IMG/VR virus record: IMGVR_UViG_3300027869_000167
Coordinates: 1-34,586 of that record
Origin: a virus
Length of the DNA stretch: 34,586 bases
Direction: 5' to 3' (one strand)
Shown here: one piece after another, positions 1,139-26,379 of the stretch
Layout: each line of letters starts with the position of its first letter
Position numbering within the stretch: position 1 is the stretch's first letter
The notes under the pieces: generated by a model
The model's input: the letters and a program-made list of their open reading frames with translations, nothing else
What the model was told of the DNA's origin: nothing
The model's database searches: none
Position numbers and translations under genes: made by a program

Positions 1139-1567
1139 ATGAATAAAGCAGTAGTATCTATCGGTATCGTCGTGGTGTTCCTGAGTATCATCGTCGGATG
1201 GGCTGCGTTCACTGCGGGCCATAACGAAGGGTATGTTCAGGGAACAGCGACCGTGCAGCAAGCAATTGATCTGGCGTCCGCTCGTTGGGTTCCGACTTCC
1301 ACGCCGCCCCTCGCCGACATCCTCACCATCCAGGGCGCCTCTACGACAGCGCAGACGTGCTTCCTCGCCGACAACGGCACCTGCGTCGCGACGTACAGCC
1401 AGTTCAAGCAGCTCATCGCTTATCTCCCGCTACTCGCGGCGATCAAAGGCGGGAACATCCTCGTCTCAAGCAACAACGTCACCGTGCCGCTCACCGCGAC
1501 GAGCTCCGCCTCCCTGACGGACGTGCTCACCCAAATGGTCGCAGAGATCAACGCGTCACATCAATGA
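1139..1567 (+). CDS. N-terminally anchored extracytoplasmic protein
   Basis: A 142-residue protein with a transmembrane or uncleaved signal helix at about residues 5-26, followed by an Ala/Thr/Ser-rich domain with two cysteines (TCFLADNGTCVATY) that could form a disulphide outside the cytoplasm. Low charge and high Thr/Ser content resemble surface proteins rather than enzymes. Its TGA overlaps the next ATG as ATGA at 1564, so the two are probably translated together. The structured leader at 1017-1105 lies just upstream. No Shine-Dalgarno sequence is seen. Function unknown. Confidence 0.6.
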   Translation: MNKAVVSIGIVVVFLSIIVGWAAFTAGHNEGYVQGTATVQQAIDLASARWVPTSTPPLADILTIQGASTTAQTCFLADNGTCVATYSQFKQLIAYLPLLAAIKGGNILVSSNNVTVPLTATSSASLTDVLTQMVAEINASHQ

Positions 1568-1809
1568 ACATCCAAGAAGTAGATCAGCCCGAGGAATTCG
1601 ACGGTGCGCACGACTGGGAAGAAGTATTGCTCGGCCCGATCGTCATCAATTGTGTTCCGACCCATAAGACCCTCAAAGACTATCTCTCGGAAGACGACGG
1701 GCGCCGGTTCCACGACGGCGGCGATTGGGATGAGCGGAGCGGGTATGAAGATGAGAGAACCGTAGACGCAGTAGTCGGCGTCGGTGATGAACCTGAAAGC
1801 GATGAGTGA
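1564..1809 (+). CDS. Small acidic protein, unknown function
   Basis: An 81-residue, strongly acidic soluble protein (MNIQEVDQPEEF to the end GDEPESDE). It starts in an ATGA overlap with the previous gene, which is why this start was chosen although the frame is open further upstream. No cysteines, membrane segment or known motif. It overlaps the next gene by 8 nt. It probably belongs to the early operon leading to the nuclease at 2041. Confidence 0.55.
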   Translation: MNIQEVDQPEEFDGAHDWEEVLLGPIVINCVPTHKTLKDYLSEDDGRRFHDGGDWDERSGYEDERTVDAVVGVGDEPESDE

Positions 1810-3269: not shown

Positions 3270-3450
3270 CCCCAGATGGCGTCGTAAGTTCTTTGTGGTT
3301 TCTCTCAATCGTGTTGTCGGCGTTGATGATGTCACGGATCTCGCGCCTCGCCCGTACGACCACCCAGACGACGAACACAATGAGTGCGCACACATCGAAG
3401 ATGACAAGCACCAGATCGAGGAGAAAAGAGATGAAGTGGGGTAGCCCCAT
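3250..3450 (-). CDS. Small membrane protein, minus-strand cassette
   Basis: A 66-residue protein with a long hydrophobic N-terminal segment (about residues 7-32, FISFLLDLVLVIFDVCALIV onward) ending in a basic ARREIR, then a polar tail. The start is fixed by a perfect AAGGAGG six bases before the ATG, a signal almost absent from + strand genes here. It faces the + genes on both sides as a single reversed gene. Membrane location is clear and function unknown; exclusion of other phages is a reasonable guess for such a moron-like gene. Confidence 0.65.
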   Translation of the reverse strand: MGLPHFISFLLDLVLVIFDVCALIVFVVWVVVRARREIRDIINADNTIERNHKELTTPSGAGRHEN

Positions 3451-4195: not shown

Positions 4196-4513
4196 ATGAT
4201 CCAGGACACCTCACTCTTTGCCTATAGCGTAGCCACCCAAAACCTCGGCGCGAAGCAGAAGCAGGTGCTCGACGCACTTCGATTTTTCCCGGATGCAACG
4301 AACGCGGAGCTTGCTGCAAATCTCGGATGGCCGGTGAACCGGATCACGCCAAGATGTCTAGAGTTGCGACGCATCGGGCTGATTATTGAAGTGGGAAAGC
4401 GGCGCTGTAAAGTCACGGGCAGTACCGCTCATGCCTGGAGAGCCAAGCATCCGGTTCTGCCGCCGGCGAGAGAAGAGAAAAAGGTCGAAACAAATCCAGC
4501 ACAATTACTCTAA
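4196..4513 (+). CDS. Winged-helix DNA-binding protein
   Basis: A 105-residue protein. Residues about 18-80 read as a winged helix: LGAKQKQVLDALRFFPDATN, then AELAANLGWPVNRITPRCLEL as helix-turn-helix, RRIGLIIEVGKRRC as the wing, and a basic C-terminus. The pattern is that of MarR-like or general phage winged-helix proteins. It could regulate the early genes around it. The stop overlaps the next ATG (TAATG at 4511), so the two are coupled. Confidence 0.7.
   Translation: MIQDTSLFAYSVATQNLGAKQKQVLDALRFFPDATNAELAANLGWPVNRITPRCLELRRIGLIIEVGKRRCKVTGSTAHAWRAKHPVLPPAREEKKVETNPAQLL
4478..4489 (+). promoter_or_regulatory. AAAAGGTCGAA upstream motif, copy 3
   Basis: AAAAAGGTCGAA inside the 3' end of the winged-helix gene, core 30 nt before the ATG at 4513. 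The leader ends CAATTACTCTAATG, nearly the same as CAATTTCTCTAATG before the gene at 27966. Confidence 0.45.
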
Positions 4514-4728
4514 TGGCCTATCCATCAGTACAAGTGAAGCCGGACGATCCGTCAATCAACAAGTTCTTCTACCTATGCCAGACCCCAGGATGCAGCGAGG
4601 TTATCAATCCCGCATTTCCGGTCGCCGAGAAGAACCCCAGTCCTAAATATTGCAAGAATTGCCAGGACAAAGCGACGCGTGAGCAGATTGAGGCGGAGCA
4701 TCACCGCGCTCCCCGCTCACCCGTGTAA
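4513..4728 (+). CDS. Small zinc-ribbon protein
   Basis: A 71-residue protein with four cysteines arranged as LCQTPGCSEV and YCKNCQDK, a likely zinc ribbon, followed by a charged C-terminal helix. It has no enzyme motif and may bind nucleic acid or a protein partner. It is coupled to the winged-helix gene by a TAATG overlap. Its last 86 nt overlap the 3' end of the reversed gene at 4643, so the two mRNAs are complementary at their ends. Confidence 0.55.
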   Translation: MAYPSVQVKPDDPSINKFFYLCQTPGCSEVINPAFPVAEKNPSPKYCKNCQDKATREQIEAEHHRAPRSPV

Positions 4729-5224
4729 ACCGGGGAGCATGAGGGTTGGTCAGCGTTACCGGCTTCCTTGTCAGCTCTATACCCAATGGCAGTGCCGCCG
4801 AAAGCAATCCCACCACAATCAAGAACGCCATCTGAGCGTTGAAACTCCATAACGATTCGGATACCGATCGATCTGCTTCCCAAGTGTTATCGTGCTCATC
4901 GAAGGAAAGAGCGCCGCAAACGATGTTATTGATCTTATTCATTGCTTGCCGGTCTGCCAGGTTTCTTTTCTGGAGCTCCCGTTCATAATATGCGCAACAA
5001 CACGACAGCGCCGCGATCATTACGACCCATAGCGTATAGATGATAGAGCCCAAAACAAAATCTTCCACCCGCGGTTGCTTAGCAATGAGCGTCGCATCCA
5101 TGGCAAGCAACAAGCCTATTGTCCCAAAGAAGATTTTCCATTCGTGATCCCGTCGTGTATTGAAGAGGATCATTCTTCTCTCGTGTAGGAACTTGAGCTC
5201 GTCCAATCGCTGCTTGACGTTCAT
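4643..5224 (-). CDS. Three-span membrane protein, minus-strand cassette
   Basis: A 193-residue protein with a charged N-terminal helix (NVKQRLDELKFLHERR, then RRDHEWK) and three hydrophobic segments at about residues 33-50, 60-85 and 136-158. The N-terminal DHEWK-plus-membrane-helix layout resembles small membrane proteins of unknown function that I recall from many bacteria, and loosely SLATT-type effectors; neither is certain. The ATG at 5224 has GGGGAG 8 nt upstream; an in-frame ATG lies 15 nt before it. Hand-counted GC is about 47% over 4861-4980, well below the capsid genes, suggesting acquisition. Confidence 0.65.
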   Translation of the reverse strand: MNVKQRLDELKFLHERRMILFNTRRDHEWKIFFGTIGLLLAMDATLIAKQPRVEDFVLGSIIYTLWVVMIAALSCCCAYYERELQKRNLADRQAMNKINNIVCGALSFDEHDNTWEADRSVSESLWSFNAQMAFLIVVGLLSAALPLGIELTRKPVTLTNPHAPRFTRVSGERGDAPPQSAHASLCPGNSCNI

Positions 5225-5291
5225 AGAAAGTCTCCCCATTGATTCTTCGCTGCAGAATAGTACGGTAATTGTATCCCCGCTTTCCCCACAC

Positions 5292-5498
5292 ATGCCCCGC
5301 AAATCATTCTTTGGAGAAATGAAAAGCCATTACATCTCTGCCGCGTGCAAGTCGCGCCGGCACAAAGAGTGTGACGGCACCGTTCCGAGGCAAGAGTGGA
5401 ACCAGCACGACCATGAATGTGACTGTCATTGCCATCTCACAATGGCGCAGCGGATGCGGCTCAAAGCCATGAAGGAAATTGACAAACGGAGGAAATGA
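5292..5498 (+). CDS. Small Cys/His-rich zinc-binding protein
   Basis: A 68-residue protein with the pattern SAACKSRRHKECDG and HDHECDCHCH, which resembles small phage proteins that bind zinc through clustered Cys and His. The frame stays open upstream into the reversed neighbour; the ATG at 5292 was chosen because the upstream part is antisense to that gene. Its stop overlaps the next ATG as ATGA at 5495. The 67-nt gap to the divergent gene at 5224 should hold two promoters, but I see only weak candidates. Confidence 0.6.
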   Translation: MPRKSFFGEMKSHYISAACKSRRHKECDGTVPRQEWNQHDHECDCHCHLTMAQRMRLKAMKEIDKRRK

Positions 5499-12113: not shown

Positions 12114-14462
12114 ATGGCATCACCCTCCCTCAACTCCAAGGGCAAGCCGAGCTGGCCGATAAGGGCCATCAAGGGAATCTTCCGATCGCGCATCGATCCC
12201 GAGACCTACGAACAGTCCCAGGGCATCACGATGACGAGATATGGTCTCGTGAAGTCTGCCGGCGGGAAGTTCGGCGAGATCGACACCGGCGGCAATCAGT
12301 TTGCCATCGAGCGACCTGGCGGCGGCCATCACATCGATCCGGAGAAAGCGCTCGCGAACAACCGCGGCTACGTGTACGCCGCGGTGAACGCGAAGGCGCG
12401 CGAAGTGCAGAACATCGACTTCCGGCTCTTCGAAGTGGACGGCGAGGATCACAACGAGAAAGAGCAGCACCCGCTCCTCGATCTCTTGGACGGCGTGAAT
12501 CCGGACATGATCGGGTCGGAGCTCAAGTACCTCACGTCGTCGCACCTCGACCTTGTGGGAAATTGCTATTGGCTCCTCACCGATTCGAAGGGCAATCCGG
12601 TCAAAGGCGATCTCGACAAGCCGGAGGCGATCTATCTGCTCGACCCGTCGCGGGTGCATCCCGTGATCGACAAGAATAACTTCCCCTACCACATCGTTGG
12701 CTACAAGATGAAGCTCGAAACGCGGAACGTCATGTTCGATCCCGCGTGCATCATCCACTTCCGCTCGCCCGATCCGATGAACTTTTACGAGGGCCGCGGC
12801 ATCGTCCAGGCCGGCGCAGAGTTCATCGACAACGACAACTATGCGATGGAGTTCAACCGGAAGTTCTTCGTGAACGGCGCGCGGCCGGCAGGGTTCCTCG
12901 AAACCGAGATGGTGTCCGAGACGCAGGTTGAGTCCCTGAAGATCGGTTTCATGGACGTGCACGGCGGCATCGACAACATGCAGCGCATCGGCGTCTTGCC
13001 GAAAGGCGTGAAATGGGCGCCGGCGGGTTCGAGCCCGAAGGACATGGACTTCAAGAACCTGTCCGAAGACATGCGCGACCGCATCCTTGCCTTGTTCGGC
13101 GTGTCAAAGACGATCCTCGGGACCGCGGAATCGGACACGAACCGTGCAACGGCGGAGACGGCCGACTACGTCTTTTCGAAGCGCGTCGTGAAGCCGCACA
13201 TGCAGCGCATCTGCGATTTCCTGAATGAGAAGCTCGTGCCGCGCTACGGGGACGATCTCTACATCAGCTTCATTGATCCGGTTCCGGAAGACCGCGGCGC
13301 ACGGACTACGGAGATGTCAGCGGCGGTGGGAAGCCAGCCGGTGCTCACGATCAACGAGGCGCGCGACGAGTTCATGGGCTTGGGACCCGTCGAAGGCGGC
13401 GATCAGCTCATGGCGCCGAGCACGATGGCCCCGGTGGGTGAGCCGACAGGCGACGGCGACGTGGCGCCCGAGGCGGCAGGAGGCGAGGAAGCCGGCAAGC
13501 GGTACCGCAAAGCGATCGAAGCGAAGGTGCAGAAAGCAGCGAACGGCCAACGCGTCGCGTTCCGGCCGGCTCGGACCAAGCTCACAAGCCGCGCAAAAGC
13601 TCGTTCCGAAATGGCGAAGTCGCTCACGGAAACCATCAAGGAGAAGCTCCAGAAAAGCCTCGCCGTAAAGAAATTCGAATCCACAAAGGCAGAGGACGAG
13701 GCGCGGTGGAAAGAATGGAGCGACTACACGGAAGAGGCGGAGAAAGACATCGCGGCGACGATCCGGAAGATCAACGCCGAGCAGAAGAAGGAAGTGCTCG
13801 CGAATCTCCCGCACGCGATCAACAAGGCGATCGATCCAAAGGATCTGTTCAGCGTCGAGAAATGGATCTCCATTACGACCGACGCCATGACGCCCATCAT
13901 GGAGACGCTCTTCGACCACCAGGCGCGCGCCGCTGCGGCCGAGATCGGCAAGCCGGAGCTCAATCCGTTCAACGACACCACGCGCGCGGCGGTGAAGCGT
14001 TCCGTCCAAATGATGTCCGAGAGCTACCAGCAGACGACGCTCACGGTGCTCGAAACGAAGATCAACGACGGGTTGCAGGCTGGCGCGCCGCTGCCGGACA
14101 TCGCGAAGACCGTGGAGGAGATCTACGAATGGAGCGACGAGAAGCGCGCCGCGACGGTCGCAAAGACCGAGTCGTTCAGGACAGCGAACGATGCTCTGAA
14201 AACCGCATGGAAACAGTCTGGCGTCGTGAAGACCGTTCGGTGGTATACGAGCGAACTGCCGAACGTGTGTGCTATATGCCTCGCTCTTAATGGACGGGAG
14301 ATCGGAATCGATGACGTGTTCTTCAAAAATGGTGAATCGTTCTCTGCCGAAGATGCAGACGGTACGACTCACTCAATGACGTTTGAGTATGGCGATGTAG
14401 AAGCACCTCCCGCTCATCCGCTCTGTGCGTGTTTTATTAGGCCCTCCACTGTCCAAATATGA
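12114..14462 (+). CDS. Portal protein fused to a MuF head-morphogenesis domain
   Basis: A 782-residue fusion. Residues about 40-420 are an HK97-type portal, the ring through which DNA enters the head (for example DPMNFYEGRG and FGVSKTILGTAE). A charged helical linker follows. From about 680 comes a Mu gpF-like domain: VAKTESFRTAND, then RWYTSELPNVCAICLALNG (Cys719, Cys722) and HPLCACF (His768, Cys771, Cys773). These are separate genes in most phages. Hand-counted GC drops from about 65% (14041-14160) to 45-52% over 14281-14460, just before the HNH gene, and codon choice changes with it, suggesting a tract replaced when that gene arrived. Confidence 0.9.
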   Translation: MASPSLNSKGKPSWPIRAIKGIFRSRIDPETYEQSQGITMTRYGLVKSAGGKFGEIDTGGNQFAIERPGGGHHIDPEKALANNRGYVYAAVNAKAREVQNIDFRLFEVDGEDHNEKEQHPLLDLLDGVNPDMIGSELKYLTSSHLDLVGNCYWLLTDSKGNPVKGDLDKPEAIYLLDPSRVHPVIDKNNFPYHIVGYKMKLETRNVMFDPACIIHFRSPDPMNFYEGRGIVQAGAEFIDNDNYAMEFNRKFFVNGARPAGFLETEMVSETQVESLKIGFMDVHGGIDNMQRIGVLPKGVKWAPAGSSPKDMDFKNLSEDMRDRILALFGVSKTILGTAESDTNRATAETADYVFSKRVVKPHMQRICDFLNEKLVPRYGDDLYISFIDPVPEDRGARTTEMSAAVGSQPVLTINEARDEFMGLGPVEGGDQLMAPSTMAPVGEPTGDGDVAPEAAGGEEAGKRYRKAIEAKVQKAANGQRVAFRPARTKLTSRAKARSEMAKSLTETIKEKLQKSLAVKKFESTKAEDEARWKEWSDYTEEAEKDIAATIRKINAEQKKEVLANLPHAINKAIDPKDLFSVEKWISITTDAMTPIMETLFDHQARAAAAEIGKPELNPFNDTTRAAVKRSVQMMSESYQQTTLTVLETKINDGLQAGAPLPDIAKTVEEIYEWSDEKRAATVAKTESFRTANDALKTAWKQSGVVKTVRWYTSELPNVCAICLALNGREIGIDDVFFKNGESFSAEDADGTTHSMTFEYGDVEAPPAHPLCACFIRPSTVQI

Positions 14463-15226
14463 GGCATGTCTCACAGCAAACAAAATTGAAACTCAGTCTT
14501 GCCCATAAGGCGTTGCATAAAGATTTGAACGGTGAGCGCAATCCGTTCTTCGGCAAGCATCACTCGGCCGAAACAATTGCGAAAATGAGCGGTCCTAACA
14601 ATCATGGCTGGAAAGGTGGAGTCCTAAAACGTGTTCATGTTCCGTGTGCGGCTTGCGGTGCGGACTTACTTCGCAGTACAACCCGTGCAAAGCGGAACTG
14701 TTTTTGTAACGCAACACACATGCTCCGTTATCGCTATGACAACAATCTTGTTGATCGCAATGCTATTGTGGCCAACGCACATAAAGCCATGGAAGCGATT
14801 CACTGGCGACGTGGTATGCCGAATCCAGCGGTAGCAGGCGAAAACAGTCCCGCGAAGCGTCCCGAAGCTCGGGCAAAGATACGCGCGGCCAAGCTCGAAC
14901 GGAACTGGATGCGAGGTCGCACAGGCAAGCTTCATCACAACTGGCAGGGAGGCAAAATTTGGTGGCGTGGTAAGGAATGGGACGAGATCAAGCTGTCCAT
15001 CCGCCAGCGTGATGGGTTCATGTGCGCTGAGTGCGACATGACTGAATGGCAACATATTCAGACCTGGGGTCATCCGCTCCATGTTCATCACATCATTGCC
15101 TATCGAATCTCACACGACAATTCGCCGTTGAACCTCATCACGTTGTGCGATTCCTGTCACGGCAAGAAGAAGCGTGAAGAAAACGCCCTGATCGAACAGG
15201 TGCGACCATTACTCGTTGTCGCATGA
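14459..15226 (+). CDS. HNH homing endonuclease with NUMOD3-like motifs
   Basis: A 255-residue free-standing homing endonuclease. It has a NUMOD3-like stretch (GERNPFFGKHHSAETIAKMS), a cysteine finger (CAACG and CFC, residues 63-83), a second basic repeat (PEARAKIRAAKLERNWMRG) and an HNH nuclease: DGFMCAECD (Cys189, Cys192), LHVHHII (His210, His211), NLITLCDSCHGKK (Cys230, Cys233). Such enzymes cut alleles that lack them and spread by repair. It starts in an ATGA overlap with the portal gene and ends in another with the gene at 15223, so it sits in the operon without breaking either neighbour. GC falls to about 40% in places. Confidence 0.9.
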   Translation: MRHVSQQTKLKLSLAHKALHKDLNGERNPFFGKHHSAETIAKMSGPNNHGWKGGVLKRVHVPCAACGADLLRSTTRAKRNCFCNATHMLRYRYDNNLVDRNAIVANAHKAMEAIHWRRGMPNPAVAGENSPAKRPEARAKIRAAKLERNWMRGRTGKLHHNWQGGKIWWRGKEWDEIKLSIRQRDGFMCAECDMTEWQHIQTWGHPLHVHHIIAYRISHDNSPLNLITLCDSCHGKKKREENALIEQVRPLLVVA

Positions 15227-25036: not shown

Positions 25037-25493
25037 CACCTTCGCTCAAAATCTCAAGCAGGCGATCGTAAACGACATTCAGTCTCTCGTCTCGTCTGGC
25101 GTGCTCGGGTCCGTGGCGACCGACGATTTCACGAAGCTCAACCCACTTAACCGGACGTGGGGGAAATTCCCCGCGGCGCTCGTGATCCCGCCAACTGTCG
25201 GCGCCTCGGAATACGAGGATGTGGTAACGAACCTCCGGGAATACACCTGGTACATCATGATCGTGACGACGCCCGACAATCTCCCCAAAAACGATCCGAC
25301 CTACCTTGAGGGGCTCATTGACAATGTGCTCCAGGTGTTTGATAACGACGTCACGCTTCAAGGAATGGCCGTCGGAGGCGTGAATCCCGCGATCCTCGAC
25401 CCGCCCGGGCCTGTGAGTAGCGGGGCAGTGACATATGTCACTGCGTACGTCACAATTAAGGCACGTGCTCTTGTTCCCGCCGCCGTTCAATAA
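25029..25493 (+). CDS. Tail terminator or neck protein with a replaced 3' end
   Basis: A 154-residue protein in the tail-terminator position (after gp10-like, before the tube). It has an N-terminal helix (NTFAQNLKQAIVNDIQSLVS) and a beta core (YTWYIMIVTTPDNLP, TYVTAYVTIKARAL). The frame is open to 25005, but the ATG at 25029 in the overlap is preferred. The last codons (ALVPAAVQ) reappear, with only synonymous changes, at the end of the HNH gene at 25508. Here they use T-ending codons (GCT CTT GTT) where most of the gene uses C and G, which suggests this 3' end came in with the endonuclease gene. Confidence 0.75.
   Translation: MGNTFAQNLKQAIVNDIQSLVSSGVLGSVATDDFTKLNPLNRTWGKFPAALVIPPTVGASEYEDVVTNLREYTWYIMIVTTPDNLPKNDPTYLEGLIDNVLQVFDNDVTLQGMAVGGVNPAILDPPGPVSSGAVTYVTAYVTIKARALVPAAVQ
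25425..25444. repeat. Perfect 20-bp palindrome
   Basis: GCAGTGACATATGTCACTGC equals its own reverse complement. It lies in the coding end of the tail terminator gene, about 30 bp before the repeated ALVPAAVQ codons and about 65 bp before the HNH gene. By chance one expects roughly 0.03 such sites in a window this size. It may mark the homing or regulatory site; see findings. Confidence 0.6.
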
Positions 25494-25507
25494 CTTACTC
25501 CAACTAA

Positions 25508-26113
25508 ATGCACGCTTCATCTCTCAAAGAACAAATACCGTGGAATAGGGGACTGCGCGGAGTTTACAAACATTCGGCGGAATCGAAAGCGAAAATAAGT
25601 TTCGCACTTGCAGGACGTCCGTGTTCTGAAGCGACGCGCGCGAAGATTCGAGCAGCCCAACTCGGTAAGTTTATTCCCCAGAGCTCGCGCGACAAGATGA
25701 GCATAGCTAAAAAGGGGCATCCCGCGTGGAATCGTGGCATTACATACCCTGAAACCGTCCGCGCAAGGATGAGTATCGGCAGTCAAGGCAAGAACGCCGG
25801 TTCAAAGCACTGGAATTGGCAGGGCGGTAAGACCCCCATCGGCCGCCTTATCCGGGATTCTGCACAATACAGGAAATGGCGCGAAGCGGTGCTCAAACGT
25901 GATGATTATCGATGCTTTGATTGTGGCCAACGGGGCGGAGAATTAGAAGCACATCACATCTACTCATTCGCTGAATACCCGCGTCTTCGTTTTGAGCTGG
26001 AAAACGGGATCACCTTGTGTATATCGTGTCATAGACAAACCCCCAATTTCGGGCGAAGATTATACGGAAGACAATATCCATCAAAGGCCCTCGTCCCGGC
26101 CGCCGTGCAATAA
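25508..26113 (+). CDS. HNH homing endonuclease with a captured C-terminus
   Basis: A 201-residue free-standing homing endonuclease. NUMOD3-like repeats are SAESKAKISFALAGR and SEATRAKIRAAQLGK, with more up to residue 95. The HNH domain is RDDYRCFDCG (Cys136, Cys139), LEAHHIYSF (His149, His150) and ENGITLCISCHRQ (Asn166, Cys171, Cys174). The HNH fold ends near residue 178. The last eight residues (ALVPAAVQ) copy the end of the upstream tail gene; here the codons GCC CTC GTC CCG GCC GCC GTG CAA follow the phage's usual choice. This looks like the original tail-gene end, now read as part of the nuclease. Confidence 0.9.
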   Translation: MHASSLKEQIPWNRGLRGVYKHSAESKAKISFALAGRPCSEATRAKIRAAQLGKFIPQSSRDKMSIAKKGHPAWNRGITYPETVRARMSIGSQGKNAGSKHWNWQGGKTPIGRLIRDSAQYRKWREAVLKRDDYRCFDCGQRGGELEAHHIYSFAEYPRLRFELENGITLCISCHRQTPNFGRRLYGRQYPSKALVPAAVQ

Positions 26114-26157
26114 ATTAACCCACCATATCTTTGAACATTCCGAACACAGAAAACAAA

Positions 26158-26379
26158 ATGATGGATCAGCCGAACGTCGAGCAGAAAGACGTGCAGCCGA
26201 GCTTCGCGCGCGCCGCATCGGTGCTCGAGAACGATTATTTCTATCCCGAAGCGAACGGGTATCAGGCGATCACGATCCGCGCGGCGACCCGCGAGGACGC
26301 GCACGCCATCTATCTTGCAAAACGGAAACCGGTGACGCCGGAGGAAAAGGTCGGTGAATCAGAAACCAATAACGAATAA
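26158..26379 (+). CDS. Small acidic protein before the tail tube
   Basis: A 73-residue soluble protein (EQKDVQPSFARAASVLENDY, then GYQAITIRAATREDAHAIYL). The central part may be a small alpha/beta fold. An upstream TTG at 26131 would add 9 residues; the ATG at 26158 with the A-rich CAGAAAACAAAATG context is chosen. It sits 2 nt before the tail tube gene, so a neck or tail role is likely but unproven. Confidence 0.5.
   Translation: MMDQPNVEQKDVQPSFARAASVLENDYFYPEANGYQAITIRAATREDAHAIYLAKRKPVTPEEKVGESETNNE
26344..26353 (+). promoter_or_regulatory. Variant AAAAGGTCGG upstream motif
   Basis: AAAAGGTCGG, core 33 nt before the ATG at 26382, inside the end of the previous gene. It differs from the main motif at its last bases, so it may be a weaker copy or chance. 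Confidence 0.25.

Follow-up and report, generated by a model that had tools for sequence, protein, structure and literature searches.

Homing endonucleases favour conserved coding sequences, and an insertion there should destroy the gene unless an intron or intein carries the nuclease. How, then, can a phage tail gene with an HNH homing endonuclease gene lodged at its very end remain complete, and why do the two genes finish in the same residues and stop codon? We addressed these questions in IMG/VR virus record IMGVR_UViG_3300027869_000167, analysed in full as a window of 34,586 bases; the arrangement is known from this one metagenomic record. The most probable answer is that a free-standing HNH homing element was inserted into the last codons of the tail gene and left the gene unbroken, carrying with it both a divergent 3′ end and the HNH gene (Table 1). 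A replacement end brought along by the element solves the problem that such a site poses.

Table 1 Features of the window and candidate displaced gene ends at other HNH loci
Locus	Feature	Coordinates	Strand	Basis and remarks
Window	Target gene, tail-terminator-like protein, 162 aa	25005..25493	+	ORF, 24 relatives, gene position, weak fold match; 3′ end now probably imported
Window	Inferred mobile element, about 620 bp	25462..26081	+	Repeat spacing 620; homology to relatives restarts at 26082
Window	Imported proximal tail-gene end, codons 153–162 and TAA, different spelling	25462..25493	+	8 of 33 nt differ from G001 and G015
Window	14-nt spacer	25494..25507	+	Unlike native intergenic sequence; no evident Shine-Dalgarno
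Window	HNH homing endonuclease ORF, 201 aa	25508..26113	+	Pfam NUMOD3 and HNH, PHROGs HNH endonuclease, motifs, profile match 5h0m
Window	Displaced native tail-gene end	26082..26113	+	Forms the nuclease's C-terminus in frame (KALVPAAVQ); identity to G001 and G015
Window	Native downstream gene, 82 aa, right flank of empty site	26131..26379	+	Stop-to-ENDYFYP distance in relatives
L184	3′-end case, RusA-like gene			HNH ends DSQICELHLYRDSDKARPRIEIAVH; distal GC3 0.75 (phage 0.70), proximal 0.46
L181, L201, L266	3′-end cases, DNA methylase			
L399	3′-end case, methylase			HNH ends QDFTGNKAELSNE
L145	3′-end case			
L175	Unfused remnant, DNA polymerase C-terminus	1440–1660		Intact-looking, about 24–25 codons, after HNH behind complete polymerase gene
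L216	Unfused remnant behind HNH, methylase			
L204	Mirror-image candidate, gene start on both sides of HNH	2459–2509 and 3318–3368		MENKTFNLLTKFEVKAA / MENKNFNLLTRFEVKAA, protein MENK...; many silent differences
L178, L185, L148	Mirror-image candidates, gene start on both sides of HNH			

Two neighbouring genes with one ending

Profile searches of Pfam and PHROGs gave no family match for the tail gene, and a protein search of phage records with it returned zero matches, so that collection holds no annotated phage bearing this gene. We named it tail-terminator-like because its neighbours are a neck gene (phrog_5, HK97-gp10-like) on one side and the tail tube gene on the other, and because a low-confidence structure model of its product bears its best resemblance to tail terminators (lambda gpU and T5 p142; E about 0.01). 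One relative of the gene (85%; L220, positions 5001–5471) is found on a contig of 232 kb from an Acidobacterium metagenome-assembled genome (PKVY01000081.1), where it likely belongs to a prophage, and for this reason the host of the phage is probably an acidobacterium.

The nuclease ORF matches both PF07460 (NUMOD3; motif at residues 20–36) and PF01844 (HNH; residues 136–177, positions 25913–26038) over cut-off, and its catalytic and zinc motifs are intact. PHROGs likewise annotates it as an HNH endonuclease, and its profile matches the solved HNH nuclease 5h0m; its structure model (mean pLDDT 50) was too poor for use. Elsewhere in the window, a second HNH gene (14459–15226) starts on the stop codon of a large ORF (12114–14462), and one related phage (G007) has a homologue of this second gene at the same place.

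The initial annotation had pointed out that the two ORFs share their last eight residues and stop codon, and on re-reading the ORFs we found the agreement in ALVPAAVQ and TAA to be exact. The proximal end, belonging to the tail gene, reads GCT CTT GTT CCC GCC GCC GTT CAA TAA, and the distal end, belonging to the nuclease gene, reads GCC CTC GTC CCG GCC GCC GTG CAA TAA; codon by codon, the five differences that it had counted are all silent and in third positions, as it had said. The two ends form part of the strongest direct repeat of the region (36 nt, 78%, 25467–25502 and 26087–26122, spacing 620), whose nucleotide score was matched by 0 of 100 or 200 shuffles and which gave a shuffle p of 0.0025 in a stricter peptide test. 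Coincidence, in the sense that an HNH protein of this kind naturally ends in a similar peptide, is hardly credible: the shortness of the repeat is the one point in its favour, whereas the DNA repeat runs on beyond the stop codon, the DNA of the distal copy finds its match in the tail gene of relatives and the intergenic stretch that follows, and none of the HNH relatives examined, where the annotation had advised looking for it, naturally ends in ALVPAAVQ.

Composition also distinguishes the two copies. GC3 is 0.69 in the phage genes around the site and 0.51 in the HNH gene, and by hand count 8 of the 9 codons of the distal end are G/C-ending versus 3 of 10 at the proximal end, in agreement with the earlier claim that only the distal copy has the codons usual for this phage. 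In these respects the insert looks foreign.

Close relatives without the nuclease carry the distal ending

We compared the site with 24 IMG/VR loci that encode the tail gene (58–93% identity). In 23 of these there is no HNH gene at the site or too little sequence to show one; a nuclease at the site was seen in L009 only, and it is unrelated to that of the window. The closest relative, L003 (G001), reads AAG GCA AAG GCC CTC GTC CCG GCC GCC GTG CAA TAA (ATTAACCCACC), and L050 (G015) has the same gene-end codons. Native homology begins at 26082, the second base of tail codon 153, and from there on G001 agrees with the distal copy at 44 of 44 nt and G015 at 33 of 33 nt, whereas the proximal copy differs from each of them at 8 of 33 nt (Fisher p 0.005). 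At background divergences of 13% and 20%, zero differences would have p values of 0.002 and 0.0006, respectively, for an informative stretch that is short (33–44 nt). The displaced piece thus comprises 26082–26113 together with the native intergenic DNA after the stop. The outcome is what the initial annotation had predicted: the tail gene of HNH-less relatives continues into the distal codons, and neither close relative has the proximal ones.

Mapping the flanks to empty sites gave a consistent picture, with the left match ending at 25497 and the right match starting at 26082 (the latter in 11 records), and an overlap of 36 nt on G001. In most HNH-less relatives the stop codon lies 116 nt from the conserved ENDYFYP motif of the downstream gene, a distance that fits the distal copy, and the DNA after the distal stop resembles native intergenic sequence whereas that after the proximal stop does not. 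Given the identity to relatives, the flank mapping and the 116-nt distance, the comparison shows the distal copy of ALVPAAVQ to be the former end of the phage gene, and the proximal copy and nuclease to be the newcomers. Since neither a donor phage nor a close relative of the window's nuclease was found (best nuclease identity about 50–58%), the direction of insertion rests on the element-free relatives. Their distal codons support the history first proposed from the window, in which an imported 3′ end and HNH gene came in and pushed the native end downstream; as far as these alignments show, the insertion fell within the last codons, the divergent end was imported, and the native end was displaced and fused in frame to the nuclease.

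A direct repeat flanking an insert is also what would be left if the nuclease gene had entered through a staggered break, the gene end being duplicated in the process and the copies drifting apart later. We consider such a target-site duplication quite unlikely, as it is the functional proximal copy that has diverged, while the non-essential distal copy is identical to relatives, and as only the distal stop is followed by native-like intergenic DNA.

A perfect 20-bp palindrome (GCAGTGACATATGTCACTGC, 25425–25444) lies where the divergent zone begins on the left. No other palindrome in the window exceeds 16 bp, and the right arm of this one is changed at two positions in the HNH-less loci L003 and L050; it could be a chance occurrence, a regulatory site or a by-product of repair.

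Structure and probable mode of entry of the element

From left to right, the element consists of the divergent tail-gene end, the spacer and the NUMOD3/HNH gene up to the junction. Its left edge is less certain than its right, with divergence from G001 and G015 beginning near 25439. The imported end closes with a TAA at 25491–25493, and the insert is not read through in frame. Together, the intact HNH domain, the NUMOD-type motif, the existence of element-free relatives and the lack of an intron match point to a free-standing HNH homing endonuclease.

Phage introns commonly carry HNH/NUMOD3 enzymes, and a likeness between the 5′ end of an intron and its 3′ exon has already been noted (PMC11855218), which together favour a group I intron or its remnant, with the resemblance of the ends due to base pairing to an internal guide sequence, in an RNA that is spliced. 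This reading is very improbable, as no group I or other self-splicing intron was matched by Rfam in the insert or the whole window, no Rfam intron match in ten similar records was over cut-off, and the proximal ORF already runs to a stop codon of its own and would have no need of splicing.

The free-standing element more probably entered by homing. Inferring from homing in general, the nuclease would cut the uninterrupted gene near codons 152–154, and repair of the double-strand break from a donor would copy the new end and the nuclease gene into the cut. The imported end would then escape further cutting through its different spelling, and the displaced end through loss of the upstream half of the site. 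With the tail protein intact, such an element could occupy a conserved coding site at little cost.

The proximal end had been described initially as recoded. Its different spelling stands, with five silent changes, but adaptive recoding is not needed to explain it: CTT GTT CCC is found naturally in L005, and A-R replaces A-K in L012 and L058. Because these variants occur naturally in relatives, import of a diverged allele, with a related phage as donor, would be sufficient to account for the proximal spelling, and comparison of the codons with those of relatives yielded no evidence of selection for silent recoding as such.

Repeated invasion of the neighbourhood

In the one related locus with a nuclease at the site (L009 of G007, positions 4505–5105), the NUMOD3/HNH gene occupies the same intergenic space by a clean insertion about 22 nt past the stop, with no duplication. 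On this comparison, the tail-gene site has been invaded at least twice. Further HNH genes of this phage group sit directly behind gene ends. To judge from these arrangements, genes of the neighbourhood have been invaded repeatedly; a gene end may be displaced in the process but need not be, as the L009 gene, inserted without any duplication, shows.

The region around another HNH gene, in G002 (L106, positions 13740–14460), is 98.5% identical to the HNH-less G003 to the left of the gene and 82% identical to its right, and the upstream gene carries four clustered changes (GCGGTC to TCTTCC) in its final codons, immediately ahead of the HNH gene. The tail of this HNH protein (13819–14376), GGAPYSY, and the end of its neighbour, GFAVYS, suggested a possible second case of a displaced end, but they match weakly and native intergenic DNA has been lost.

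Candidate displaced gene ends at other HNH genes

We extended the analysis to 145 non-redundant HNH loci, with 578 ORFs from the same contigs as controls. In a stricter test, which compared the last 25 residues of each protein with the 400 nt upstream at a shuffle p of at most 0.0025, matches were found for 10 of the 145 HNH genes, 4 of these being tandem HNH genes or spurious, compared with 6 of the 578 control ORFs. A looser six-frame test gave 19 matches at a score of at least 45 versus 1.0 expected from mismatched pairs, with control ORFs also often scoring high, and our assessment of recurrence is therefore based on the stricter test and the curated cases. When the first HNH loci were screened for plain nucleotide repeats, the window alone stood out clearly, and the other cases were seen by peptide-level tests.

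These counts bear on a further reading of the window, in which homologous recombination with a related phage that has the tail gene followed by this HNH gene, with an illegitimate right junction at microhomology, brought in the nuclease as a passenger and no homing took place. This is the same history as homing, differing only in whether the nuclease drove it. The likeness of the proximal codons to natural alleles of relatives (CTT GTT CCC in L005; A-R in L012 and L058) speaks for it, as does divergence near the junction that starts upstream of 25462. We nevertheless regard it as unlikely, since the junctions fall where a homing-type gene ends, and since displaced ends are commoner at HNH genes than at control ORFs, even though 4 of the 10 HNH matches are tandem genes or spurious.

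Entry by homing, our preferred reading for the window, may have left similar traces elsewhere (Table 1). Methylases without an HNH gene share an end motif, roughly TGKxAxLESTGxxYxEL, and against these the distal tail of L181 scores 75 versus 53 for its proximal end; in the same comparison L266 was a tie, and L201 pointed in the direction opposite to L181. A direction of insertion is supported in no more than three places: the window, L181 and, by composition, L184. A glycosyltransferase-like gene is split in L254. As gene-end cases we excluded L188 and L271 (tandem HNH genes), L176 and L242 (low-complexity sequence), and L147 and L276 (not gene-end cases); L174 and L217 were too weak to count. 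Overall, displacement of gene ends at HNH genes is likely to be recurrent, on a less firm basis than the window itself.

Implications

Whether the window exemplifies something general is, in our estimate, an evenly balanced matter: gene-end replacement may be a common and previously unrecognised homing strategy of phage HNH endonucleases, acting on 3′ ends and, in mirror image, on 5′ ends through a divergent, cleavage-immune terminus and without splicing. We found no description of gene-end import by HNH genes in phages in the open-licence literature, and an earlier account elsewhere is possible. If true, such a selfish element would be the natural counterpart of a synthetic gene drive with a recoded rescue and would be built in the same way, and the C-termini of nucleases would be diversified in the process, which may account for some that look odd. 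The strategy also predicts cleavage sites from sequence alone, at the start of the displaced native end.

Comparison with known systems

In the icd gene of Escherichia coli, the integrative elements phage 21 and e14 supply a variant copy that makes up the gene end, and the original end is displaced. These elements use a site-specific integrase and attP/attB sites, whereas the 620-bp element of the window has no integrase.

Free-standing homing endonuclease genes that adjoin phage genes with no intron are represented by seg and mob of T4, the mob enzymes being of the HNH type; these genes lie between genes and their enzymes cut hundreds to thousands of base pairs away, and no displaced gene end was seen in the description consulted (PMC2988022). 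The insertion in the window, in contrast, lies inside coding sequence that the element itself appears to have rebuilt.

The ShiLan insertion is an out-of-frame HNH gene inside actinobacteriophage DNA methylases with no intron or intein, in which the insert opens with 11 residues that are similar to the 11 following the insertion site, a feature viewed as a possible intron trait (PMC11855218). ShiLan and the window share this kind of repeat beside an HNH insert in a phage gene that lacks an intron or intein. They differ in that the ShiLan insert lies within its gene and is read through without a stop, with the HNH gene in another frame, while the imported end in the window has a stop. Import of a gene end would account for the 11-residue repeat, for which gene-end replacement may thus provide an explanation.

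A close parallel comes from fungal mitochondria, where the resident gene is completed by a divergent end that came with an endonuclease ORF and its native end is displaced downstream, as in atp6 of Allomyces macrogynus, atp6, atp9, cox2 and nad3 of Glomus, atp9 of Rhizopus oryzae and cox2 of Mortierella (PMC3630166). The window has the same layout, with a gene end on both sides of the endonuclease ORF and the proximal copy completing the gene. In the fungal elements, the displaced native end is closer to close relatives than the inserted end is (PMC3630166), and the same holds here (0 of 33 and 0 of 44 versus 8 of 33 differences). The fungal elements are mitochondrial and encode LAGLIDADG or GIY-YIG enzymes, whereas that of the window is found in a phage and encodes an HNH/NUMOD3 enzyme; unlike in the fungal cases, the displaced end here became the nuclease's own C-terminus. 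By analogy, then, the window element works like the fungal mobile ORFs and is not a member of that group by descent, so that a strategy known from fungal mitochondria is seen here, by comparative sequence analysis, in a phage with an HNH enzyme.
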